64,000 bases of DNA from Sinorhizobium fredii NGR234 (GTDB taxonomy: Bacteria; Pseudomonadota; Alphaproteobacteria; Rhizobiales; Rhizobiaceae): the NCBI RefSeq assembly GCF_000018545.1, contig NC_012586.1, positions 682,001-746,000 of the forward strand, given 5' to 3'. Positions 16,492 through 30,056 of the stretch are shown piece by piece. The position numbers and the translations under genes are program-made. The notes under the pieces are model-generated. The model ran no database searches and was not told the origin of the DNA. It was given only the letters and a program-made list of their open reading frames with translations. The first letter of the stretch is position 1. The number at the start of each line of letters is the position of its first letter.

Positions 16492-16917
16492 CTAAACGGC
16501 ACTGTTTCCTGCCCCTCCGGCAGGAGCATCTGAGGCAATGACGGCTATCGCATCGACTTCGACGAGATATCCATAGTGCAGTTCCGGCACCGGAACGACG
16601 GTGCGAGCCGGGCGGGAATCCCCTAGTCGCGCCGAATAAACCTGGTTGAAGCGGGGCCAATTGGCCACGCCGACGATGTAGGCGGTCACCCTGACGAGAT
16701 CGGCCGGGGTTCCGCCTGCGGCTTCAAGGATCGCCAGCAGGTTGTCGAGGGCCTGTACCGCCTGGGTCTCGAAGCTGTCGTCCGGCAGGGCTTCTCCACC
16801 CGGTCGGATCGGCAGCTGGCCCGAAATGTAGAGGTGCTGACCGACGAGCTTCGCTTGTGAGTAGTGGCCCGCCGGGCTTGGCGCTCGATCGGTATTCACT
16901 GTCATGGATTTGGGCAT
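16492..16917 (-). CDS. RidA/YjgF family enamine/imine deaminase
   Basis: A 141-residue RidA-type protein. Family landmarks are APSPAGHYSQAKLVGQHLYI, SGQLPIRPGG, NLLAILEAAGGTPADLVRVT and a late Arg in SRPARTVVPVPELHYG that binds the carboxylate of the imine substrate. GGAGG lies in front of ATG 16917, whose A is also the last base of the upstream gene's TGA, so translation is coupled. It should hydrolyse reactive 2-aminoacrylate or other imines released by the PLP lyase and flavoenzyme of the same operon. Confidence 0.9.
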   Translation of the reverse strand: MPKSMTVNTDRAPSPAGHYSQAKLVGQHLYISGQLPIRPGGEALPDDSFETQAVQALDNLLAILEAAGGTPADLVRVTAYIVGVANWPRFNQVYSARLGDSRPARTVVPVPELHYGYLVEVDAIAVIASDAPAGGAGNSAV

Positions 16918-18095
16918 CACCAGCCTCCAAAGCGGGTCCAACGGGCCTCGACAGCGTGCGAGCGGCCGCGGACCACGTGATACGTTTCGTGCTGCGCAGC
17001 GGTCGCACAGGCGTGATTCGGCAGGATCCGCACCCGGTCTCCGACCGCCAGATCCGGGAGTCGTGCATTCGATCCGGGGCGCACCGCTATGATTCCATGT
17101 TCCTGGTTCGCGTCGGCAACGATGATGTCATGATAGGGCGCGCCATCCATGTCACAGACCAGGCCATAGCCCTGGTCGGCGGCCTGCTTGCCAGTGCCGC
17201 GGTCCCGCGACAGAGACATCCATCCGCCATCGGTTATGATCCAGCCTTTCTCGCGCTGGTGTCCGATGACGGTTGCGAGCACGCTGAGCGCGATATCGTC
17301 GATTTGGCAAACACCAAGCCCAGCCATCACCAGGTCGAAGAAGACGAACACGCCCGCGCGGACTTCCGTCACTCCAGCAAGATCCGTTGCGTGATGGGCC
17401 GTCGGGGTCGAGCCGACGCTGACGACCGGGCAGGGCAGCCCCGCGTTCCGCAAAATGCGCGCGGCCTCCACGACGGCCAATCGTTCCGTTTCCGCGTAGA
17501 GCCGCAGCGCCTCGACACCTCCGCCCTTATAGCTGTCGCCGGCATGGGTGAGCACGCCACGCAGCTCGGCACCTGCCGTCAACGCCTGCCCGATTTCCAC
17601 CAGCTGCGCCTGGTCAGTAGGTCGCACACCGGAGCGGTGGCCGTCGCAATCGATCTCGATTATGGCCGGGATGCGCGTCCCGCTCTGCCGAGACGCCTCG
17701 GCCACCGCTTGTGCCTGCAGAACAGTATCCAGAGTGACGACGAGATCGACGCCGCTCGCCCGCAGTTCCGCGACACGCGCGAGCTTCGCTGGGGCGATGC
17801 CGACCGCATAGATTATGTCCCGGACGCCTGCCGCCGCGAACTGTTCAGCCTCCTTCAGGGTAGAGACGGTCGCCGGCCCCTCCGGCGAGCTCATCACCCG
17901 CCGTGCGACTTCGATCGACTTAGCGGTCTTCAAATGGGGCCGGAGTGACACTCCCATGGCGTCAAGTCGGCTCCTGAGCCGCTGAACATTCCTGTCCATT
18001 CGGTCGGCGTGCAGGACCAAACAGGGTGTTTCCAGGTCCTCAAGGCTGGTCGAGGCGGCCAGCCGGGTGGTCGGGTCGATCGTCGCTAGGACCAT
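16917..18095 (-). CDS. D-threonine aldolase / D-serine dehydratase-type PLP enzyme (DSD1 family)
   Basis: A 392-residue alanine-racemase-fold (fold-type III) PLP enzyme. LETPCLVLHADRMDRNVQRL opens the barrel, the Schiff-base Lys is in RPHLKTAKSIEVARR, and the C-terminal domain has a metal-site motif LPNHACATAAQHETYHVV. This family contains D-threonine aldolase, eukaryotic-type D-serine dehydratase and beta-hydroxyaspartate aldolase (BhcC). ATG 18095 has TTGGAGATC at good spacing; GTG 18122 is the alternative. It leads an operon with RidA and an FAD oxidoreductase, with a divergent LysR gene. RidA next door favours a reaction that releases aminoacrylate, as in D-serine dehydration, but aldol cleavage is not excluded. 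Confidence 0.85.
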   Translation of the reverse strand: MVLATIDPTTRLAASTSLEDLETPCLVLHADRMDRNVQRLRSRLDAMGVSLRPHLKTAKSIEVARRVMSSPEGPATVSTLKEAEQFAAAGVRDIIYAVGIAPAKLARVAELRASGVDLVVTLDTVLQAQAVAEASRQSGTRIPAIIEIDCDGHRSGVRPTDQAQLVEIGQALTAGAELRGVLTHAGDSYKGGGVEALRLYAETERLAVVEAARILRNAGLPCPVVSVGSTPTAHHATDLAGVTEVRAGVFVFFDLVMAGLGVCQIDDIALSVLATVIGHQREKGWIITDGGWMSLSRDRGTGKQAADQGYGLVCDMDGAPYHDIIVADANQEHGIIAVRPGSNARLPDLAVGDRVRILPNHACATAAQHETYHVVRGRSHAVEARWTRFGGW

Positions 18096-18186
18096 GATCT
18101 GATCTCCAATTCGGGTTTTCACCTTGCGGTCAAATCATAAAGATGACAATTAATGACAAGTGAATGTTTGCTTCAGGTTTTCATTA

Positions 18187-19116
18187 ATGTTGACGTCCGA
18201 TGACCTTGCCTTCTTTTCGGTGCTGACAGGCTCGAAATCTCTCGCGGAAAGCGCGAGAAAGCTGAACGTTACGCCTCCGGCAGTGACACAGCGCCTGCGA
18301 GCGCTGGAAGAGAAAGTCGGGGTGCGGCTGATCGATCGGTCCGGACGGCGGCTGCGCCTCACGGAAGAGGGCTCGCTGGTTGCTTCTCACAGCGTTATCG
18401 TCAGCGAGACCATCGATTCGCTTGCCGAAGCCCTAGCTGATCGCAGAGGCGCGGTTCGCGGGCACCTCAGGGTCGCCGCACCACACGGCTTTGGACGGCT
18501 CTATGTGGCCCCGGTCGTGGAAGCGTTCGCACGAGAGCACGGCGGCGCGACCGCTACGCTGCAGTTGTCCGATCATCCGGCGGCTCTGCTCGTCGAAAGC
18601 TATGATGTCGTTGTTCACATTGGGGCGCCGGGGCATCTGGACCAGGTCGTCACGACACTGGCGCCGAACCCTCGAATACTCTGCGCAAGTCCGAGGTACC
18701 TCGACTCGGCATCACCGATTTCAACGCCCGCTGATCTTGCTCAGCATCGCTGTCTTGCCGTTCGGGAAAACGACGAGGACGTGACGCTGTGGCGCTTCAA
18801 GGGGCCGCGACAGGAGATGGCGACGGTGCGCGTCAATCCGGTCATGTCGAGCAACGATGGTGCCGTCATCCGCGAGTGGGCGCTTGCCGGTCAGGGCATC
18901 ATGATCCGTTCCGAGTGGAACGTGGCAGAAGATCTCGCTGACGGACGGCTGCAGCAGGTGCTGCCCAACTGGAAGCTCCCACCGGCCGACATCGTCGCGA
19001 TGCTCGGCTCGCGTCACGGGCGAAGCGCCCGGACTACTGCTTTCCTGACGATGCTTCGACAAGCGCTGAAGCCGCCGCCCTGGCAAGCGGCTTGTGCGGA
19101 ACCGGGTGGTCAATAG
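18187..19116 (+). CDS. LysR family transcriptional regulator
   Basis: A 309-residue LysR regulator: N-terminal HTH with SKSLAESARKLNVTPPAVTQ and RLRALEEKVGVRLIDRSGRR, then the periplasmic-binding-protein-like effector domain (VRGHLRVAAPHGFGRLYVAP). It is divergent from the 18095-13520 operon with 91 bases between the starts, the normal arrangement for LysR control of a target operon; the aldolase/dehydratase substrate is the likely inducer. ATG 18187 is preferred; a GTG at 18160 would add nine untypical residues. Its last seven bases overlap the convergent dehydrogenase gene. Confidence 0.92.
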   Translation: MLTSDDLAFFSVLTGSKSLAESARKLNVTPPAVTQRLRALEEKVGVRLIDRSGRRLRLTEEGSLVASHSVIVSETIDSLAEALADRRGAVRGHLRVAAPHGFGRLYVAPVVEAFAREHGGATATLQLSDHPAALLVESYDVVVHIGAPGHLDQVVTTLAPNPRILCASPRYLDSASPISTPADLAQHRCLAVRENDEDVTLWRFKGPRQEMATVRVNPVMSSNDGAVIREWALAGQGIMIRSEWNVAEDLADGRLQQVLPNWKLPPADIVAMLGSRHGRSARTTAFLTMLRQALKPPPWQAACAEPGGQ

Positions 19117-20540
19117 CCCAGAATGGACTTCGTCTCGAGATACTCCTCAAGCCCGTGCACGCCATATTCGCGCCCATTGCCCGAGTGCTTGTAGCCACCG
19201 AACGCGGCCGTCCCGTCCCACGCCGGATAGTTGATGTGAACCTGCCCGGCGCGGATCCGCGCGGCGACTCGTCGAGCCCGCTCCGGATCCGGGGACTGGA
19301 CATGGGCTCCCAGTCCATAGACCGTGTCGTTGGCGATCGTGATTGCCTCTTCTTCGTCCCGGTAGGGCATGATCGCAAGGACCGGCCCAAAGATCTCCTC
19401 GCGAGCAACGCGCATCTCTGGCCGAACCTCGGAAAAAATCGTCGGCTGCGTGAAGAAACCTCGATCGAGACCTGCCGGGCGTCCCAGTCCGCCGCACAGG
19501 AGCTTCGCGCCTTCGTCGATTCCCGCCCGGATCATGGTCTGCACCCGCTCATACTGGGCGCGATTGGCGATGGGCCCCATTGCGGTCGCCGGATCCCTCG
19601 GATCGCCGACGCGGATGGCATGTGCGGTTTTGCTGGCCAGATCCTCGACCTCGGCGAGCCGATGGGCGGGCACGAGCATGCGTGTCGGGGCGCTGCACGA
19701 CTGGCCGACATTGCGCATTCCGGCAAGGACGCCTTTTGGTACCGCCTCGGCGAAATCAGCATCATTCAGCAGGATGTTGGGGGACTTGCCGCCAAGTTCC
19801 TGGACCACCCGCTTGACCGTCGGGGCCGCCGCCTGCGCGACGAGTACCCCCGCACGCGTCGAGCCGGTGATCGAGATCATGTCGACCTCTGGGTGGCTGG
19901 AGAGAGCTGCGCCGACACTCTCTCCAGTGCCATTGACCAGGTTGAACACGCCTGGCGGAGTGCCGGCATCATGCATCAGTTGGGCGAAGAGCAAGGCGCT
20001 GTAGGGGGACAGCTCACTGGGTTTGAGGACGACGGTGCAGCCCGCCGCGATCGCTGGGGCAAGCTTGGCGGTGATCTGGTAGAGTGGCCAGTTCCACGGG
20101 GTGATCAGGGCGCAAACGCCGATCGGCTCCTTGGCCGTTGCGGTGCGCCCATCGACCGTCACGAACCGGTAGTTCTCGAGCACCTCCATCTGGACACGAA
20201 TGTGTTCCGCGGCAAAAGGAACCTGCGAGGCCCGCGCAAAGCTGATCGCCGCCCCCATCTCCATCACGAGCGCCTCGGCGAACAGCTCCGCTCTCTCCTT
20301 CAGGAGCGAATGCACCCTGCCGAGGAGCTCAAGCCTCTCGGGCACAGATGATTGAGAGAAGGCCGGGAAGGCCTTGCGCGCTGCCGCAACCGCGAGATCG
20401 ACGTGGTTTGCCTCTCCGGCGGCGATATGGCCGATAACCCGTTCCGAGGCGGGATCAACGACGGGCAGACTTGTTGCGTCCGCGTGTTCTTGCCACTCCC
20501 CGCCAATATAGAACTGGGTTCCTCGTTCGGTTATCGTCAT
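19110..20540 (-). CDS. NAD-dependent aldehyde dehydrogenase
   Basis: A 476-residue ALDH. It opens QFYIGGEWQEHADATSLPVV; the cofactor segment is ITPWNWPLYQITAKLAPAIA, the general-base Glu lies in VVQELGGKSPNILLNDADF, the catalytic Cys in NVGQSCSAPTRMLVP, and EIFGPVLAIMP follows. The start has AAGAGG upstream. It resembles betaine-aldehyde/DhaS-type dehydrogenases with broad specificity, so the substrate is open. It is a single-gene unit, convergent to the LysR gene and separated from the homoserine-type cluster by an Lrp gene in the same direction. Confidence 0.9.
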   Translation of the reverse strand: MTITERGTQFYIGGEWQEHADATSLPVVDPASERVIGHIAAGEANHVDLAVAAARKAFPAFSQSSVPERLELLGRVHSLLKERAELFAEALVMEMGAAISFARASQVPFAAEHIRVQMEVLENYRFVTVDGRTATAKEPIGVCALITPWNWPLYQITAKLAPAIAAGCTVVLKPSELSPYSALLFAQLMHDAGTPPGVFNLVNGTGESVGAALSSHPEVDMISITGSTRAGVLVAQAAAPTVKRVVQELGGKSPNILLNDADFAEAVPKGVLAGMRNVGQSCSAPTRMLVPAHRLAEVEDLASKTAHAIRVGDPRDPATAMGPIANRAQYERVQTMIRAGIDEGAKLLCGGLGRPAGLDRGFFTQPTIFSEVRPEMRVAREEIFGPVLAIMPYRDEEEAITIANDTVYGLGAHVQSPDPERARRVAARIRAGQVHINYPAWDGTAAFGGYKHSGNGREYGVHGLEEYLETKSILGY

Positions 20541-20751: not shown

Positions 20752-21195
20752 CTATTTCCGGATTACAGAGGAGAGGGCAAACGCAGTCAGGGTATCGCGC
20801 ACCCCCGGCATCTCGGCTATCTGCTGCCAAATCTGCCGGATGCGGTCGGCCTCGGGAGACTCGACCCTGACGAGGAGATCGAAGTCGCCGGTCATAACGT
20901 CGCAAGCCACGACTTCCGGGATTTTCCGCAGCGCTTGAATAACGTCGCCGCCCCTCATGCGATCGTGCCGATAGACGAAGATCAGTGCGGTCGTAACGTG
21001 CTGGCTACTCCCCCCATCGCCGGTGACGATCGTATATCCTTTAATGAAGCCTTCGCGCTCAAGTCGTTCGATCCGCACTCGCACGGCGTTACGCGAGAGA
21101 TTCACCTTCGCCGACAACTCCGCGTGCGAGATCCGGGCGTTGGCCTTCAATTCGACAAGTATCTGTTCGTCGGTTCGATCGAGAAGATATTTCAT
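20752..21195 (-). CDS. Lrp/AsnC family transcriptional regulator
   Basis: A 147-residue regulator with HTH MKYLLDRTDEQILVELKANA and LSRNAVRVRIERLEREGF, then a RAM domain with CDVMTGDFDLLVRVES. It is the last gene of the minus-strand cluster hom - aldehyde dehydrogenase - aspA - homoserine-kinase-like - lrp, lying 19 bases after the kinase-like gene. That position suggests it controls the cluster in response to an amino acid such as homoserine, aspartate or threonine, an inference from context. Confidence 0.92.
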   Translation of the reverse strand: MKYLLDRTDEQILVELKANARISHAELSAKVNLSRNAVRVRIERLEREGFIKGYTIVTGDGGSSQHVTTALIFVYRHDRMRGGDVIQALRKIPEVVACDVMTGDFDLLVRVESPEADRIRQIWQQIAEMPGVRDTLTAFALSSVIRK

Positions 21196-21214
21196 GGGGT
21201 CGGTGCCGGGTCGA

Positions 21215-21949
21215 TTAGCCTGTGATTTCGGGCGTTACCGATCGATACGCTACCACGGCGATTTCCGGTAGGAAGGCTCTTTCCTTCTGGCTCGCAAATC
21301 GCTTCGATGTCGAAGCCATTATGAAGCCTGGCAATGCCTCCCTTTCCGCGCCGGTCAGGCCTCGAACCTCTTCATAACCCTGCAGCAGGGCGCGCGCCCG
21401 CTCCTTGTTCAGTTCGCCGTTGGTTTCGTGCCGCAGCCTGAAATTAATGACCCCGCTTACGTCCTCTCCAAGAAAAAAGACATTCTCTCGGGCCAACGCG
21501 CCATGAACTGCCCCAGTTGGAAGATCCGCTGATGTGCGCTTTACCTTTCGTTCCAAGACAGTATGGATTTGAGCCATCACACGACCCAGGCTTCGGCATT
21601 TTGCCGCGCCTGCAATGGTGGATGAGGAACCCGGTACGAAGCTGACGACGGCAACCAATCGACCCGCGGCCCGGCACGTGGCGTGGCCATCGACGGTGCG
21701 CAGCGGTTTGGGGCAGGGGACGCCCTTTCGATGGAGCTCCTCCATGGTTTCGAAGGCTTTTTCGAGATCTAAGGGCTGGGCTCCGTTCTCGAAAAGCGTA
21801 ACGATGAATTCGCCTTCCTGGGCGCGAAACAGGTAGGTGGTCTCAGTGTCGCCGTCAGCGATCCCAATCACTGACAAGAGCGACATAAAACCATAGGCTG
21901 CAGTGATCGATTGGCGATCTTCGTCAGAGAGCTCTGTAAAAACAGCCAT
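21215..21949 (-). CDS. Degenerate homoserine-kinase-like (APH fold) protein
   Basis: A 244-residue protein resembling type II homoserine kinase (ThrB, aminoglycoside-phosphotransferase fold, usually about 320 residues). It keeps the MAVFTELSDEDRQSITAAYG start, GEFIVTLFENGAQPLDL and RKGVPCPKPLRTVDG. The catalytic loop, normally H-A-D-L-F-x-x-N, reads GAVHGALARENVFFLGED, so the catalytic Asp is missing. The metal-binding D of G-x-I-D-F reads GVINF. The C-terminal helices are shortened. The ribosome site AGGGTAGGA and intact frame show it is still expressible. It lies 12 bases after aspA. It may have become a binding or regulatory protein, or be decaying. Confidence 0.75.
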   Translation of the reverse strand: MAVFTELSDEDRQSITAAYGFMSLLSVIGIADGDTETTYLFRAQEGEFIVTLFENGAQPLDLEKAFETMEELHRKGVPCPKPLRTVDGHATCRAAGRLVAVVSFVPGSSSTIAGAAKCRSLGRVMAQIHTVLERKVKRTSADLPTGAVHGALARENVFFLGEDVSGVINFRLRHETNGELNKERARALLQGYEEVRGLTGAEREALPGFIMASTSKRFASQKERAFLPEIAVVAYRSVTPEITG

Positions 21950-21961
21950 TTTCCTACCCTA

Positions 21962-23377
21962 TCAGACCGATGAACTCAGCGAAGTATTTGCGAAATCCGA
22001 GCTGCCTTCAAAGAGCTCGTCAATTTGGCCAGGCGCCAAAATTCCTTCCTCTTCCACGACCTGCCGCAATTCCCGCTTTTCAGTCAGCGCCTTTTTGGAA
22101 AGATACGCTGCCTTGCTATACCCGATAAGCATTGCCAACGGCGTCGCGAGCACGAGAGACTGGTCCAGGAGGGCTTTACAGCGGTCGACGTCGACTTCAA
22201 TTCCGTCGATGCATCGCTGCTTAAAAATATCCATCCCCCGCGTCAGCATCCGCATGGATTGAAGGATGTTGAGAACCATCACTGGCTCCATTGCATTCAG
22301 TTGCAACTGCCCCGCGCTGGCCGCGAGCGTTACCGTGAGATCATTTCCGATAACCTGGAACCCGATCTGGTTCATCATTTCCGGAATGACGGGATTGACT
22401 TTGCCGGGCATGATTGAGGATCCCGCTTGCATAGGCGGCAGTCGGATTTCACCCAGGCCCCCGCGAGGTCCACTGCTCAGTAGACGTAAGTCATTGCAGA
22501 TCTTAGTCAGCTTCACTGCGATTCGTTTCAGAACACCGGAGAACGAAACGAACCCGCCCGCATCAGATGTGGCCTCAATCAGGTTTCGGGCCGGAAAGAC
22601 GTCGATTCCCGAGATCTGCGTAAGGTGCACGCAAGCTGCGCCGGAAAATCCGGGAGGGACGTTGATTGAGGTGCCGATTGCAGATCCACCGAGATTGACC
22701 TCTTTCAACAGCTTGGAAGCTGACTGCAGTTGGATGATATCTTCGTCGAGGAGCTCCGCGAACGCTTCAAATTCCTGCCCTACTGTCATCGGAACAGCAT
22801 CCTGCAACTGAGTGCGGCCGACCTTCAACGCAGCCGCATACTGACTTGCCTTTGCACGGAATGCGCCGCGCAAGCCGACCTGGGACGCTATCAGCCCGTC
22901 ACAAGCGCGAAGTATGGTCAGACGGAGCGCGGTGGGATAGACATCGTTGGTCGACTGGGAAAGGTTCACATCATCATTGGGATGCAGCTTTGCGTAATCG
23001 CCGACATCGGCCCCGAGCTTCAAGAGCGCCAGGTTCGTTACCACCTCATTAACATTCATATTCGTCGACGTCCCAGCGCCGCCCTGCATCATATCGATCG
23101 GGAAGTTCTCATCGACACCCTTCAATTCGATGAGATCATCGCAGGCTTCGGAGATCGCCCATGCTTTTTCCACCGGCAGAAGACCAAGCTCAGCGTTCGC
23201 GAGAGCGGCCGCTTTCTTGACCGTAGCCATAGATTGGATAAGTTCGGGAAAGTCTTTCAGCCGAAGGCCCGAAACGTCGAAGTTGAGCTCGGCTCGACGA
23301 GTGTGGACGCCGTACAGAACATTACGAGGGATCGGAAGAGACCCGATCAAGTCGGCCTCTATGCGTACAGTTCCCAT
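21962..23377 (-). CDS. aspA: Aspartate ammonia-lyase
   Basis: A 471-residue member of the aspartase/fumarase superfamily that turns L-aspartate into fumarate and ammonia. Seen: MGTVRIEADLIGSLPIP, MMQGGAGTSTNMNVNEV, HPNDDVNLSQSTNDVYPTA and the superfamily signature AGSSIMPGKVNPVIPEMM with the catalytic Ser loop. GGGGAG precedes the start. The N-G-G-D variant of class II fumarase is absent, and the aspartase-like residues plus neighbours (homoserine dehydrogenase, semialdehyde-type dehydrogenase) favour aspartase. It would deliver the carbon skeleton to the TCA cycle. Confidence 0.88.
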   Translation of the reverse strand: MGTVRIEADLIGSLPIPRNVLYGVHTRRAELNFDVSGLRLKDFPELIQSMATVKKAAALANAELGLLPVEKAWAISEACDDLIELKGVDENFPIDMMQGGAGTSTNMNVNEVVTNLALLKLGADVGDYAKLHPNDDVNLSQSTNDVYPTALRLTILRACDGLIASQVGLRGAFRAKASQYAAALKVGRTQLQDAVPMTVGQEFEAFAELLDEDIIQLQSASKLLKEVNLGGSAIGTSINVPPGFSGAACVHLTQISGIDVFPARNLIEATSDAGGFVSFSGVLKRIAVKLTKICNDLRLLSSGPRGGLGEIRLPPMQAGSSIMPGKVNPVIPEMMNQIGFQVIGNDLTVTLAASAGQLQLNAMEPVMVLNILQSMRMLTRGMDIFKQRCIDGIEVDVDRCKALLDQSLVLATPLAMLIGYSKAAYLSKKALTEKRELRQVVEEEGILAPGQIDELFEGSSDFANTSLSSSV

Positions 23378-23491
23378 TCTCTACTCCCCGTAGCCTGAAT
23401 TCCGGCGTGTGCATTGCATCAGTGATTGCCTTTTGAGCACGTGGGCTCACCTAGACGCATTGATGAGCTGACCTGAAGGAAGCGGCGCCTG

Positions 23492-24907
23492 CTACCGCTT
23501 CAGCCGATTGATGCAGACGACCTTCGGCTGGGTCATGTCTTCGTAGGCAAACCGAACGCCTTCACGTCCCATGCTGCCGTATTTGAAGCCGCCAAAGGGC
23601 ATCGCGTCGAACCGATAGTCGGACGAGTCATTGATCATGACACCCCCGGCGTCGATTTGATTGGCGGCATCGAGAGCCTCCTCCAGATCGTTGGTGAAGA
23701 TACCAGCGTGGAGGCTGTATTCCGGGCTGTTTGCCAACCGGATTGCCTCCTCCAGTTCATCGAACGTCTGCAGGATGGCAATCGGTGCAAAGACCTCCTC
23801 ATTCCACAGGTCGCACGTTGCTGGCACGTTCTCCAGCACTGTTGGAGGGTAAAGATTGCCGGAGGGCCTATGCCCGCAAAGGAGAGTGGCGCCAGCGGCG
23901 ATTGCGCGCTCGACCATGGCAGCAGCTCGGCTGACCGCCTTTTCGGAAATCATCGGCCCCACGTCAGTGTCTGCTTCCAACGGATTGCCGGTCTTGAGCT
24001 TTGCAGTCTGAGCCACGAACTCTGCTTTGAACCGTTCATAGATCGGTCGCTGGACCAGAATCCGCTGCGTGCCGATGCAGTTCTGGCCCGCCGCCCAGTA
24101 GGCACCCGACACGCACCCTTGAACCGCCGCGTCAAAATCGCTGTCTTCCATGACGATAACCGGTGCATTTCCGCCGAGATCCATCGCGAGCTTCTTGATG
24201 CCGGCACTCTTTGCGATGGCCTCGCCGGTGGAAAAACCACCCGTGAAGGAGACCATCCGGACGTCCTTGGCCGAGACGAGGGCTTTGCCCAGATCCGCCC
24301 CGCCGACAGCTACCGTGATGACTTCCTCCGGCAACCCGCTTTCGAGCAGCACTTCCACCAGCTTGATGGCCGAGAGAGGCGTAAGCTCCGACGGCTTCAG
24401 GAGTATCGCATTGCCGCCGGCGATAGCCGGGCCGAGCTTGTGGGCCACGAGATTGAGCGGGTCATTGTAAGGTGTGATTGCAGTGATGATGCCGAGCGGC
24501 TCCCGTGTGTACCAGCCTTGACGGGATTCCGAGCCGCCATAGGAATCGAAGGGGATCACCTCGCCAGCATTCCGCTTGGCTTCGTCCGCCGAGAGCTTCA
24601 AAGTATTGACGCACCGCGTAGCTTCTTTGCGGGCCTGGGTGATTGTCTTCCCCGCCTCCCGCACGATAAGGAGTGCAAATTCTTCCTTGCGGGCTTCAAC
24701 GGTCGCTGCCGACTTTTCCAGGATTGCGGAGCGCTTATGACGGGGCAGGAACCGCGCGATCTGCGCACCCCGATTGGCGCGCTGAAGCAGCAGGTACACA
24801 CTGTCGGAATTGGTCTCAGAGACTGTTCCGACAAAGCTGCCGTCGAAGGGATTGCTGATAATGATCTCGTCCACGGATGTCTTCTTGCTGAAGGCGAGGC
24901 TCTGCAT
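23492..24907 (-). CDS. Aldehyde dehydrogenase (PhnY/lactaldehyde-type), probable aspartate-semialdehyde oxidiser
   Basis: A 471-residue [23 protein letters not shown] start, [20 protein letters not shown] cofactor segment, [13 protein letters not shown], general-base Glu replaced by Asp in [19 protein letters not shown], and catalytic Cys in [15 protein letters not shown]. The subfamily includes phosphonoacetaldehyde, lactaldehyde and glyceraldehyde-3-phosphate dehydrogenases. The ATG overlaps the homoserine dehydrogenase stop as TGATG, so translation is coupled. Placed between homoserine dehydrogenase and aspartase, the simplest role is oxidation of aspartate 4-semialdehyde to aspartate. That assignment is inference from context. 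Confidence 0.82.
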
Positions 24908-25965
24908 CAGGCGGCCTCCCTCTTAGCAGTGGCCTGGGCATTGTGGATGGCGATAATGTCGGAGAGCAGCGCATAAGCGGTCTCAATTCGGCCGGCGCCA
25001 GGGCCGGTGATGGTGACAGAGCCGAGTAGTTCGGTGTTAAGCGACACGGCATTGGTCGCGCCGTTTACACCAGCGAGTGGATGCTCGAAGGGAAGTTGCT
25101 TCGGAGAAACACTGCCTGTTACCGTCCCGTCTTCATTCCGAACCGCCGATCCGACCAACTTCCAACGGCTATTTGCTGCTGCCGCGTTTTCGATATCGGA
25201 CGGAGAAAGCTTGGAGATCCCCTTGCACGTGACCTCTTCGGGCTTGAGGCTTGCCCCCAGCAGCTCGTTTGCCAGGATCACCACCTTGAGGCGAACGTCA
25301 AAACCTTCGACATCGGCGGTCGGATCGGCTTCCGCATAGCCGAGTATCTGCGCTTCCTTGACTGCAGTGGCGAAGTCAAGGCCTCCTTCCATACGGCCGA
25401 GGACGAAGTTCGAAGTCCCGTTCAAGATCCCCTCGAAACCCTTCACCTCCGCGCCCGCAAGCGTCCTTTCCGCCATGCGGATGACAGGGGTACCGCTCAT
25501 GACGGAGCCCTCATATTCGAAATGAACGCCGTTCGCGTGCGCAACGGCCTTCAGTTCCTGGGCAGCGATCGCGACCGGCCCTTTGTTCGTGGTGACGACA
25601 TGCTTGCCGGATTGGAGGGCCCAGCGGCAGTGCGAAACAGCCGGCTCGCCGTCCTTCGGGTTTGTAAATGTCGCTTCCACGATGAGGTCAGCAGGCGCCG
25701 TCTTGATGATTGTTTCGTTGTCTGCTTCCGCACTGCCTCCAGAGAGCTGGCCAAACCCGCCTTTCGCGAAGTTCGCTTCAACGAGGGTCTTGGCATCAAG
25801 CCCGTTGGGCGAAATAACGGACCCGAGATAGAGGTCGCTGACAGCTACGATGTTCAGGCGAAAGCCGAGGTCTCGTTCCCACAGCGGGTTCTTCGTCGCG
25901 ATGAGCTCGGCCAAAGCGCGATTGACGCCACCAAACCCGATAAGTGCAATGTTGTAGGTTGTCAT
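24907..25965 (-). CDS. hom: Homoserine dehydrogenase without ACT domain
   Basis: A 352-residue NAD(P)-dependent enzyme interconverting homoserine and aspartate 4-semialdehyde. The nucleotide-binding motif is [18 protein letters not shown], the catalytic region has [20 protein letters not shown] (Lys), and [20 protein letters not shown] plus [20 protein letters not shown] are diagnostic. It ends at about 350 residues, so the C-terminal ACT domain that confers threonine feedback in the roughly 430-residue biosynthetic enzyme is absent. GGAGG precedes ATG 25965. As first gene of the cluster with an aldehyde dehydrogenase and aspartase, it probably runs in the oxidative, catabolic direction. Confidence 0.9.
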
Positions 25966-26193
25966 GTGGATCCTCCGGTGAAGCATTCTGCTCCGCAATG
26001 ATGAGATGCGGATCGCTCAGTCGGAACGGCACAAACAGACCAATCTACCGAGCGTTTTGCTCATTCCACCGCCGTCGTGGCCGGTGACCCGGGTTGAGCC
26101 GACGGCAACCGTCGTCCAACATCCCACGTGCGGGCAGCTGGAACCCGGGTCAGGCGGTTCGAGAAGAAATCCGAGGGCGATTCGGATGAAATG

Positions 26194-26648: not shown

Positions 26649-27113
26649 TCACCGTTGCCCCTTGATCCGGGTGGCCAAGACGTTACGAATTGAGAAGCTT
26701 GAATGAATTCTCAGGACGCCGGGCAGTGTCGAGAGAATCTCCTTATGGATCTTCTCGAACTCGCCCGCGCCCCCCACTTCCACCCTAAGCAGATAGTCCG
26801 AGCCGCCGGTCATCAGAAAGCACTCGCGGATTTCCGGGTGCTTGCGTACGGCAGCTTCAAAACGGTCGAGGTGTTCCTCGGTCTGCCGCTCGAGCGTGAT
26901 GTTGATGATCACCGCAATCGTGTCCTCAGAACTCCCGCTGTCCACCAGGGCCGTGTAGCCGCGGATGACGCCGGCTTCCTCGAGCAATCGTATGCGACGC
27001 AGACAAGCCGAAGGTGAGAGGCCAACTTCCTCCGCAAGGCGCGCATTGCTCAACCGAGCATTCAGCCTCAGCAGACGCAGGATATTGCGGTCGATCGCAT
27101 CAATGGCGGCCAT
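26649..27113 (-). CDS. Lrp/AsnC family regulator of the dad operon
   Basis: A 154-residue regulator. Its HTH opens MAAIDAIDRNILRLLRLNAR and continues LSPSACLRRIRLLEEAG; the RAM domain has CFLMTGGSDYLLRVEVGGAG. The frame extends to 27170, but ATG 27113 matches the family start. It is divergent from alanine racemase and D-amino-acid dehydrogenase genes with about 125 bases between them. An Lrp-type activator next to dadXA is a common arrangement, with L-alanine as usual effector. Confidence 0.93.
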   Translation of the reverse strand: MAAIDAIDRNILRLLRLNARLSNARLAEEVGLSPSACLRRIRLLEEAGVIRGYTALVDSGSSEDTIAVIINITLERQTEEHLDRFEAAVRKHPEIRECFLMTGGSDYLLRVEVGGAGEFEKIHKEILSTLPGVLRIHSSFSIRNVLATRIKGQR

Positions 27114-27237
27114 GCATAATCTTCCATTTGTTCGCAGTTTATTCGACGAATGATCATACATCGAAACCATCGATTATAAGTAGGAGGGATATTCAACGAA
27201 AGTTTCAATATGTTCCGGTGCAACGAAAGGGTTGCAC

Positions 27238-28371
27238 ATGAACTGTCATGCTTCGCATATTCAAAGTTGGGATGCAGACGCTGTTACGGGCTCTTCAGGC
27301 CACCTGACCATTGATCTCGCCGCCTTACAGCGAAACTACCGCAAGCTTTCAGCCGCGGTCGCCCCCGCATCGGCCGCCGCTGTGGTCAAGGCCGACGCGT
27401 ATGGGCTTGGCGCCGAGCAGGTCTCCAAAGCGCTTCATGCGCAGGGCTGCCGGCACTTCTTTGTTGCACATCTCCCTGAGGCGCTGAAACTCAGACCGCT
27501 TCTGCCGAACGACACGCACATATTCGTGCTCAATGGGCTGCAGCCGGGAGCAGAGATCACTTGCACCAATGCCGACGTCGTTCCGGTTCTCAACTCTCTC
27601 GAGCAGTTCCGGCGGTGGTCCTTCACCGCTGAGAAGCTCGGACGCGTTTTTCCTGCCGTTCTGCAGTTCGACACTGGCATGTCGCGTCTCGGCGTACCTC
27701 CACAGGAAAGAACCGCGCTCGCCGCCGAACTCAAGGGCTGCGGGAACCTCGAAATCCTCTTCATCATGAGTCATGTCGCCTGCGCCGACGAGGCCGACAA
27801 AAAGCAGAATGCCGATCAGCTCGCCGAGATGCGCGTTATCGCCGCCGAGTTCGCAGGGCTCGATGTCTGCTTTGCCAATTCGGGCGGCGTCTTTTTGGGC
27901 GGGGACTATCACGGCGTGCTGGCTCGTCCCGGTATCGCCCTCTACGGCGGCGCCCCCACTGCCGGCAGATACAACCCCATGGAGCCCGTCGTTCGGCTCG
28001 AGGTCGCTGTCATCCAAACAAGGACGGTCCCTGCCGGAACGCGTGTCGGATACGGCGGTGCGCACGTGACCTCCGCTAAGACCAGGCTCGCTACAATCGC
28101 TGCAGGTTACGCCGACGGTCTTCCCCGCAGTCTCAGTGATTGCGGCGCCGTTTTCTACGATGGCGTTCGCCTGCCAATCGTTGGCCGCGTCTCGATGGAC
28201 AGCATCACGGTGGATATCACCGCCTTGCCCGAGGGCACGCTTTCCCTGGGCAGTCTCGTCGAGGTTCTCGGTCCCCATCAGACGCTTGAGGATGTCGCCG
28301 AAGCCGCCGGCACGATCTCCTACGAAATCCTGACCAGCCTCGGCCGGCGTTACGAACGTCGGTATCGCTGA
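27238..28371 (+). CDS. dadX: Alanine racemase, catabolic (DadX-type)
   Basis: A 377-residue fold-type III PLP racemase converting L- to D-alanine. Seen: LTIDLAALQRNYRKLSAAV, Schiff-base Lys in AAAVVKADAYGLGAEQV, LQFDTGMSRLGVPPQE, ARPGIALYGGAP, and the second catalytic base Tyr in TRVGYGGAHVTSA. ATG 27238 follows a GAAAGGG ribosome site. It is followed after 21 bases by D-amino-acid dehydrogenase, so the racemase feeds L-alanine into oxidation as D-alanine; hence the DadX name rather than the biosynthetic Alr. Confidence 0.92.
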   Translation: MNCHASHIQSWDADAVTGSSGHLTIDLAALQRNYRKLSAAVAPASAAAVVKADAYGLGAEQVSKALHAQGCRHFFVAHLPEALKLRPLLPNDTHIFVLNGLQPGAEITCTNADVVPVLNSLEQFRRWSFTAEKLGRVFPAVLQFDTGMSRLGVPPQERTALAAELKGCGNLEILFIMSHVACADEADKKQNADQLAEMRVIAAEFAGLDVCFANSGGVFLGGDYHGVLARPGIALYGGAPTAGRYNPMEPVVRLEVAVIQTRTVPAGTRVGYGGAHVTSAKTRLATIAAGYADGLPRSLSDCGAVFYDGVRLPIVGRVSMDSITVDITALPEGTLSLGSLVEVLGPHQTLEDVAEAAGTISYEILTSLGRRYERRYR

Positions 28372-28392
28372 GCAAACATCATCGAGGAAAGC

Positions 28393-29640
28393 ATGAAAGT
28401 CATCGTTCTCGGCGCCGGCGTCATCGGCGTGACCAGCGCGTACCGGCTTGCCAAGGCAGGACACGAGGTCACAGTCATCGACCGCCAACGGGGGCCGGCT
28501 CTGGAAACCAGCTTCGCCAATGCAGGGGAGGTCTCTTTCGGTTACTGCTCGCCATGGGCCGCACCGGGCATCCCGATGAAGGCGCTGAAATGGCTGTTCA
28601 TGGAGCACGCGCCGCTGATCCTGCGCCCGAAGCTCGATCGCGCCATGCTCACATGGATGTTCCAGATGCTGAGAAACTGCACCGCTGAACGCTACGCGAT
28701 CAACAAGAGCCGAATGCTGCGTCTCGCGGGCTACAGTCGGACGTCTCTGGCGGAGGTGCGGGCGGAGACCGGCATTGCCTATGACGAGCGCATGCAAGGC
28801 ACCCTGCAGCTCTTCAGGACGCAGCAGCAGCTCGACGCTTCGGCCAAGGACGTCAAGGCGCTCGCCGCCGACGGTGTGCCGTACAAGGTGCTCGATCGCG
28901 ACGGCTGCATCCGGGTCGAGCCCGCGCTGAAGCATGTCCGCGACAAAATCGTCGGCGGGCTGCTGACGCCGAAGGACGAGACGGGTGACTGCTTCAAGTT
29001 CACCAACGCACTTGCCGCCAAGGCCGCGGCGCTTGGCGTTCGCTTTGTCTACGGCAGGCAAATCGCGGGACTGGACGTCGAGAGTGGCCGCGTGCGTGGC
29101 GTGCTGACTGACCGCGAACGGATGAGCGCGGACGCCGTCGTCGTCGCACTCGGCAGCTATTCGCCGCTGCTCCTCAAGCCCCTCGGCATCAAGCTGGCGG
29201 TCTATCCCGTCAAGGGCTATTCCCTGACGATCCCGATCACCGACGCATCGCGCGCACCGGAGTCGACGGTAATGGACGAGACCTACAAGATTGCGATCAC
29301 CAGGCTGGGCGATCGGATCCGCGTCGGCGGCATGGCGGAAATATCCGGCTACACCAATGACCTCGGCCACGCGCGGCGTCGCACGCTCGACCATTCGGTA
29401 ACCGACCTGTTTCCCGGCGGGGATTTGCAAAAGGCATCATTCTGGTCGGGGCTGCGGCCGATGACCCCGGACGGGACCCCGGTGATCGGGCCGACAAAGG
29501 TTGCCGGCCTTTTCCTCAACACGGGCCACGGGACGCTGGGATGGACGATGAGCTGTGGCTCGGCGCGACTGATCAGCGATCTGGTCAGCGGGCGAAAGCC
29601 GGAAATCGACGCGGCCGATCTCGCGATCAGCCGCTACTGA
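28393..29640 (+). CDS. dadA: D-amino acid dehydrogenase small subunit
   Basis: A 415-residue flavoprotein oxidising D-alanine and other D-amino acids to 2-oxo acids and ammonia, passing electrons to the respiratory chain at the inner membrane face. FAD motif [20 protein letters not shown] at the extreme N-terminus, [20 protein letters not shown] (a DadA hallmark), and [19 protein letters not shown] with [18 protein letters not shown] at the C-terminus. GAGGAAAGC precedes the start. It lies between dadX and a RidA gene, forming a complete alanine degradation operon. Confidence 0.94.
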
Positions 29641-29675
29641 TCAATCACTCACCCAGAAACAACTTGGAGCCAGCA

Positions 29676-30056
29676 ATGATCGAGGCGGTAACAACAACTG
29701 AGGCACCGGGCGCGATCGGCCCGTTCTCGCAGGCGATTAAAGGGGGCAATCTGCTTTTCGTCTCGGGGCAACTCCCGATCGATCCCGCAACCGGAGAGCT
29801 CGTTTCGAACGATCCCGTCGAGCAGGCGACGCAGTGTTTGAGAAACATCGCCGCGATCGCCGAAGCGGGGGGATCGGGAATCGAGAGGACCGTCAAGACG
29901 ACCGTGTTGCTGACGGACCTTTCCCGTTTCGCCGACATCAACAGCGTATATGCGACATTCTTCCAGAAGCCATTCCCTGCCCGCGCGTGCTATGAGGTCA
30001 GCGCGCTGCCAAAAGGGGCACAAGTTGAAATCGAGGCGGTGATCGCGCTGGGATAA
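29676..30056 (+). CDS. RidA family enamine/imine deaminase
   Basis: A 126-residue RidA: APGAIGPFSQAIKGGNLLFV, SGQLPIDPATGEL, NIAAIAEAGGSGIERTVKTT, and the substrate Arg in FPARACYEVSALPKGAQVEI. TTGGAGC precedes ATG 29676. Closing the dadX-dadA operon, it should hydrolyse the imino acid made by DadA to the keto acid before it can damage PLP enzymes. Confidence 0.93.
   Translation: MIEAVTTTEAPGAIGPFSQAIKGGNLLFVSGQLPIDPATGELVSNDPVEQATQCLRNIAAIAEAGGSGIERTVKTTVLLTDLSRFADINSVYATFFQKPFPARACYEVSALPKGAQVEIEAVIALG

Follow-up and report, generated by a model that had tools for sequence, protein, structure and literature searches.

Which compound is served by a minus-strand cluster in which a homoserine dehydrogenase gene (hom) is followed by genes for an aldehyde dehydrogenase (ALDH), an aspartate ammonia-lyase (aspA), a homoserine-kinase-like protein and an Lrp-type regulator? 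This cluster lies in the window, as we call the 64,000-nucleotide stretch C2:682001-746000 of the Sinorhizobium fredii NGR234 genome (6.89 Mb in three contigs). Open reading frame (ORF) coordinates and domain searches confirmed the five genes, their positions and their order as originally predicted. The nearest named relatives of the stretch in the plasmid collection were Sinorhizobium fredii GR64 (92.8%) and S. americanum CCGM7 (91.8%). Judged by its genes and their relatives, the cluster is most likely an accessory operon for the use of homoserine, probably including homoserine split off from a larger plant amino acid, as a source of carbon and nitrogen. Its features are listed from the upstream end, with protein lengths in amino acids (aa).

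26007..26064, minus strand: conserved element of 58 bp, about 40-100 bp upstream of hom, with the inverted repeat GAGC-AAAAC-GCTC; probable operator/promoter
24907..25965, minus strand: hom, NAD(P)-dependent homoserine dehydrogenase without ACT domain, 352 aa; predicted to convert homoserine to aspartate semialdehyde
23492..24907, minus strand: ALDH gene, NAD(P) type, 471 aa; proposed non-phosphorylating aspartate-semialdehyde dehydrogenase
23378..23491, minus strand: spacer of 114 bp at the position of dapA in most relatives; probable decayed 3' end of dapA
21962..23377, minus strand: aspA, aspartate ammonia-lyase, 471 aa; predicted to convert aspartate to fumarate and ammonia
21215..21949, minus strand: pseudo-homoserine-kinase gene, 244 aa; HxD reads HGA and IDF reads INF
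20752..21195, minus strand: lrp, Lrp/AsnC-family regulator; last gene of the operon

The predicted coupled or short junctions were found at three places (a 1-base overlap between the hom stop and the ALDH start, 12 bp between aspA and the kinase-like gene, and 19 bp between the latter and lrp) but not between ALDH and aspA, which are 114 bp apart. We placed the hom start at the ATG at 25965; the mechanical ORF extends to a TTG at 25998. Hom matched the Homoserine_dh (1.9e-59) and NAD_binding_3 domains and the PRK06270 model (482 bits, cut-off 373), and the domain search listed no ACT domain, in line with the prediction. With a Homoserine_dh domain, substrate motifs and no ACT domain, it is a short-form homoserine dehydrogenase; a second Hom, 41% identical, is encoded on another contig (C3). 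The ALDH (Aldedh, 2.5e-142) belongs to a group in which all 50 relatives keep the catalytic cysteine (GQNC) and all 50 have Asp in place of the usual Glu of the ELGGN motif (DLGGN); 5KF0 has Glu. AspA passed the PRK12273 aspartate ammonia-lyase cut-off (645 bits against 510), fell below the stricter TIGR00839 equivalog (573 of 681.2 bits), and has the motif GRTQLQDA in common with 39/39 relatives; its next best match in the genome is 38% identical. Sequence scoring thus found catalytic motifs in all three enzymes. Hom would turn homoserine into aspartate semialdehyde, ALDH would take this to aspartate, and AspA would release fumarate and ammonia. Enzyme logic and catalytic motifs agree with this predicted route, of which the fumarate step is the less constant part among relatives (aspA with 80% or more of its length in 34/47 loci, Hom and ALDH in 46/47).

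Searching genome contigs with the kinase-like protein as the bait yielded 62 loci (numbered with L below). Gene order is conserved in the way the original prediction had proposed to check: the arrangement recurs in 47 of the 62 (L006-L050, L052, L067), usually as Hom-ALDH-DapA-AspA-kinase-like-Lrp, and the other 15 hold distant homoserine kinases of 22-30% identity. This recurrence led us to reject a generic cluster of stray genes. Hom was present in 46 of the 47 loci (cut by the locus edge in 2), ALDH in 46 and Lrp in all; neither Hom nor ALDH was seen in L035, a contig of just 3.4 kb. In 44/47 loci, Hom and ALDH are encoded upstream in the same orientation; the exceptions are this short contig and L018 and L019, where they have the opposite orientation. 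For AspA, 80% or more of the length was covered in 34 loci, with 2 partial matches and 11 loci lacking it; for DapA these numbers were 31, 1 and 15. Such coverage is not the same as an intact frame, DapA in L021 and Hom in L037 being in two pieces. In a survey free of this bait's bias, covering 199 genomes of the family, this type of Hom occurred in 7 and the kinase-like protein in the same 7, each time with both genes on one contig and within 10 kb.

The same genes also stand downstream of a lyase. The annotated order on plasmid pRLN3 of Rhizobium leguminosarum Norway (L091) is a B3/4 protein, an ABC transporter (ATPase, binding protein and two permeases), a pyridoxal phosphate (PLP) lyase of the Cys/Met type, an SMR transporter, Hom, ALDH, DapA, AspA, a 'phosphotransferase' that is the kinase-like protein, and Lrp. 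An excerpt of one report places the canavanyl-tRNA deacylase CtdA, a B3/4 protein, directly upstream of the canavanine degradation operon in R. leguminosarum (PMC10018355). The gene order of L091 matches that description and thereby links the operon to the canavanine locus. Plasmid pRLG201 of WSM2304 (L094) carries Hom, ALDH, DapA, a partial AspA (residues 1-286 matched) and Lrp together with a canavanine-type lyase; this PLP enzyme (P0134), just upstream of Hom, is 88% identical to the L003 copy and has a UniRef name that begins 'Canav'. A further relative of the lyase (P0230, 73%) is named canavanine-gamma-lyase by the Joint Genome Institute (JGI). Hauth et al. are said to have found, in 2022, that homoserine dehydrogenase, aspartate-semialdehyde dehydrogenase and aspartase activities are induced for canavanine use. 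By sequence, the window operon has the Hom, the putative aspartate-semialdehyde-type ALDH and the aspartase that a canavanine operon requires. The original prediction knew of no described pathway with this enzyme set. The gene orders of L091 and L094, taken with what is reportedly known of canavanine use, instead make it the lower half of the rhizobial canavanine locus, so that a supposedly stand-alone homoserine operon is joined to canavanine use; an open-licence literature search on the enzyme set itself found nothing. The enzyme set is not new.

This lower half recurs with two different lyases that would release homoserine. In a second operon type (L043, L045-L050, L067), an ABC transporter and a PLP lyase lie between ALDH and AspA or the kinase-like gene. 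The transporter has a binding protein of the Lys/Arg/Orn type, and the lyase, which we call b-type, is 42-43% identical to the canavanine type. Five of these eight loci encode a homocysteine-S-methyltransferase homologue just behind Lrp, with a GGCC motif in the L050 copy. This homologue and the basic-amino-acid-type transporter suggest S-methylmethionine as a possible substrate of the b-type lyase. The b-type query also matched 165 Salmonella plasmid records in the plasmid collection; the listed records of at least 60% identity were all from other genera, and the Salmonella matches appear to lie below 60% and probably represent a general member of the same enzyme family.

A b-type module without the lower half is present in NGR234 itself, about 350 kb from the operon on the same replicon (C2:346821-352344, equal to L088:7822-13345). 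It comprises an ATPase, a binding protein, two permeases, a lyase (77%) encoded at C2:347845-349122 and a methyltransferase homologue (69%), and it may feed the operon. Across the 199 genomes, with NGR234 included and up to 9 candidates scored per genome, 8 had the b-type lyase and 3 the canavanine type. One or other of the lyases was found in 6/7 genomes with the operon versus 4/192 others (Fisher p 1.8e-8, not corrected for kinship). Within the fetched flanks, a lyase was present at 21 of the 47 loci, 13 of the canavanine type and 8 of the b-type. Compared with the canavanine utilisation locus, the window operon has orthologous Hom, ALDH, AspA and Lrp, with DapA and the kinase-like protein usually shared as well, in the same downstream order. 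It differs in having no adjoining lyase, transporter or CtdA and no dapA. Because the genome has no canavanine-type lyase and only the distant b-type, we did not file the window operon as a canavanine operon; it would be the counterpart of the lower module found behind canavanine-gamma-lyase in other rhizobia, but without such a lyase at its side.

Several observations weigh against a link to homoserine-releasing lyases, or against the proposed route as a whole. No lyase was present in the fetched flank of 26 of the 47 loci. In the NGR234 genome (G000), no canavanine-type lyase was found at E <= 1e-130, and no CtdA-like protein was found; the best candidate, the genome's own stand-alone B3/4 protein, is 31% identical to that of L091 and is on another contig, not directly upstream of the operon. 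At up to 3 mismatches, no copy of the 58-bp element was found in front of the distant lyase module. In pRLG201 of WSM2304, a canavanine strain, the corresponding region (L094:12154-16930) has no kinase-like gene and lacks the end of aspA. The ALDH reached none of the listed NCBIfam equivalog cut-offs, so aspartate semialdehyde is proposed as its substrate from context. The lineage of the window is also losing parts: dapA is gone, aspA is absent in L006, L009 and L026, and the kinase-like gene carries a frameshift in L026 and in L044 and is shorter in the window.

The first of these points favours another account, in which free homoserine exuded by roots would be the operon's sole substrate and the distant lyase module would have nothing to do with it. 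Besides the 26 loci without a flanking lyase, one operon genome (G194) has no lyase at the cut-off, and hom keeps its own upstream element even directly behind the lyase genes in L091. The operon copy on plasmid pRL8 also bears on this account. It has the same gene order as the window and is 86% (Hom), 81% (ALDH), 60% (kinase-like) and 83% (Lrp) identical to it. Since pRL8 has a single place matching this region, we took its hom to be pRL80071, a mapping made in this analysis. According to an excerpt of PMC3333776, pRL80071 encodes a putative homoserine dehydrogenase and is up-regulated specifically in the pea rhizosphere, which is rich in homoserine. Its ortholog RLV_0467 is described, after Liang 2022, as belonging to a novel dehydrogenase family with a strong preference for homoserine oxidation, and as lying close to the homoserine cluster of Vanderlinde 2014 (excerpt of PMC10228743). 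The predicted downhill flux fits these reports on the ortholog, although its direction is still one that we infer. The pRL8 region differs from the window in that just 62% of the length of aspA and 25% of that of dapA are matched. With aspA cut in this way, the route there may stop at aspartate; the published mutant cluster is described as close to and not identical with this operon. A literature search for 'pRL80083' found nothing. The co-occurrence of lyase and operon (6/7 versus 4/192 genomes, with the lyase far off on the same contig in G000 and G138) speaks against restricting the operon to free homoserine, and we consider that restriction possible but doubtful.

We prefer the broader reading, with homoserine from both sources. 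Kinase activity cannot be assumed for the predicted homoserine-kinase-like product, as both catalytic aspartates are gone. The protein has an APH fold and falls far under the cut-offs of homoserine-kinase models (145 of 271 and 125 of 256 bits); it aligns with the solved homoserine kinase 2PPQ in three stretches, with about 40 residues missing. The catalytic loop HADLFxDN has become HGALxxxN and the metal site IDF has become INF. HGA and INF, and with them the loss of the catalytic and the metal-binding Asp, were found in 49/49 intact operon-type rows (51 rows without the frameshifted L026 and L044; 48 distinct loci, L001 and L036 both being pRL8), whereas both Asp are kept in 16/16 distant or genuine ThrB rows, including the genome's own ThrB. 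None of the 120 listed database relatives, out of 354 matched in all, keeps either Asp (109 scored by pattern, 11 by eye); four of the 11 read by eye show HGS for HGA, and one of the 11 has lost the Asn as well. The AlphaFold model of the L002 ortholog (mean predicted local distance difference test score, pLDDT, 88.9; predicted template modelling score, pTM, 0.86) had 2PPQ as its best Foldseek match (E 8.8e-19, TM 0.75 by query), but with a root mean square deviation (rmsd) of 7.4. Fold and N-terminal sequence are thus shared with type II homoserine kinase (ThrB; 2PPQ), whereas the Asp pair and the roughly 40 residues are lost and the length is 261 aa versus 312-340.

The ratio of nonsynonymous to synonymous substitution rates (dN/dS) for the kinase-like gene had a pairwise median of 0.18 (47 sequences, 202 pairs), compared with 0.06-0.12 for Lrp, Hom, AspA, ALDH and DapA. 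The gene is under purifying selection, weaker than that on its neighbours. On these residues and rates, it appears to be a conserved pseudokinase derived from homoserine kinase, new here; databases still call it homoserine kinase. Pseudokinases of a related fold are described for spore kinases in an excerpt of PMC2860764, and a literature search for 'homoserine kinase' with 'pseudokinase' returned, judged by its listings, nothing on this operon. A 'homoserine kinase' beside hom need not mean threonine synthesis.

Lrp, which the domain search assigned to the AsnC/Lrp family, adjoins the pseudokinase in 47/47 loci; as the pseudokinase was the bait, both its occurrence in these loci and its pairing with Lrp there follow in part from how the loci were chosen. 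The conserved element before hom could be anchored in 47/48 upstream regions examined, with a diverged form in the b-type operons. For 15 chosen, divergent loci, mean pairwise identity was 0.68 in the core versus 0.25 and 0.29 in two upstream blocks and 0.39 downstream; the core value is somewhat inflated because the anchor was chosen inside it, and the unanchored flanks gave 0.64 (20 bases on the left) and 0.66 (14 bases on the right). The genome has a single copy of the 58-bp element at up to 3 mismatches, and a regulatory element common to the operon and the distant lyase module was rejected on this ground. In L018 and L019, where the pseudokinase-Lrp pair lies apart from hom, no copy was seen by eye in the 250 bp upstream of the pseudokinase. 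We infer that the operon's Lrp acts on this predicted operator/promoter, and the pseudokinase and Lrp likely form a control unit that would act there. More tentatively, the pseudokinase might sense homoserine or a close relative and signal to Lrp on the element, and the distant module might yield homoserine from S-methylmethionine; in this speculation, an enzyme from the synthesis of an amino acid would have become a switch for the breakdown of that amino acid. The module may split S-methylmethionine into dimethyl sulfide and homoserine, with one lower pathway for two plant compounds. We consider the conserved pseudokinase, the separation from a lyase and the 58-bp element worth following.

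The losses in this lineage raise a further alternative, that of a decaying operon, with the pathway disappearing and the kinase-like gene under drift. The S. fredii group is without dapA, whose usual site is the 114-bp spacer in the window. L008 has a clear dapA remnant (score 66). The window by itself gives a weak score of 31, which 83 of 1000 shuffles attain and which is not significant, and a remnant there is credible only because of L008, L007 and L044. The window kinase-like gene has a 17-residue in-frame deletion relative to three relatives, and its dN/dS (0.32 against L008, 0.37 against L009) is above the family median. Decay is nonetheless unlikely, since all five window ORFs are open, dN/dS of the window Hom, ALDH, AspA and Lrp is about 0.02-0.16 among the pairs listed, the 58-bp element is intact, and the protein-collection entry of the 244-aa kinase-like form represents 11 contigs. 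A role of the operon in lysine or threonine biosynthesis or salvage (DapA, Hom, homoserine kinase) is very improbable and was rejected, because, for all the dapA genes of relatives (substrate-site motifs in the 17 copies scored, the lysine motif reading VKDATG) and the database name of the kinase-like gene, the kinase is without its catalytic Asp, such a route has no place for an aldehyde dehydrogenase or an aspartase, dapA is absent in the window, and a further Hom and a ThrB with catalytic Asp are encoded elsewhere in the genome.

Rfam and tRNA scans of the window gave no matches, and a simple promoter and terminator scan found fewer sites than in shuffles. Beside the operon, positions 16917-18122 and 19110-20540 hold a BhcC-like/D-serine-dehydratase-like gene and a second aldehyde dehydrogenase gene, and three Bradyrhizobium loci (L053, L056, L057) have homologues of these (59-66%) close to genuine homoserine-kinase-like genes. 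At 26649-30056, a second Lrp gene adjoins alanine racemase, D-amino-acid-dehydrogenase-like and RidA-like ORFs, the names other than Lrp coming from a reading of the ORFs without a family search.

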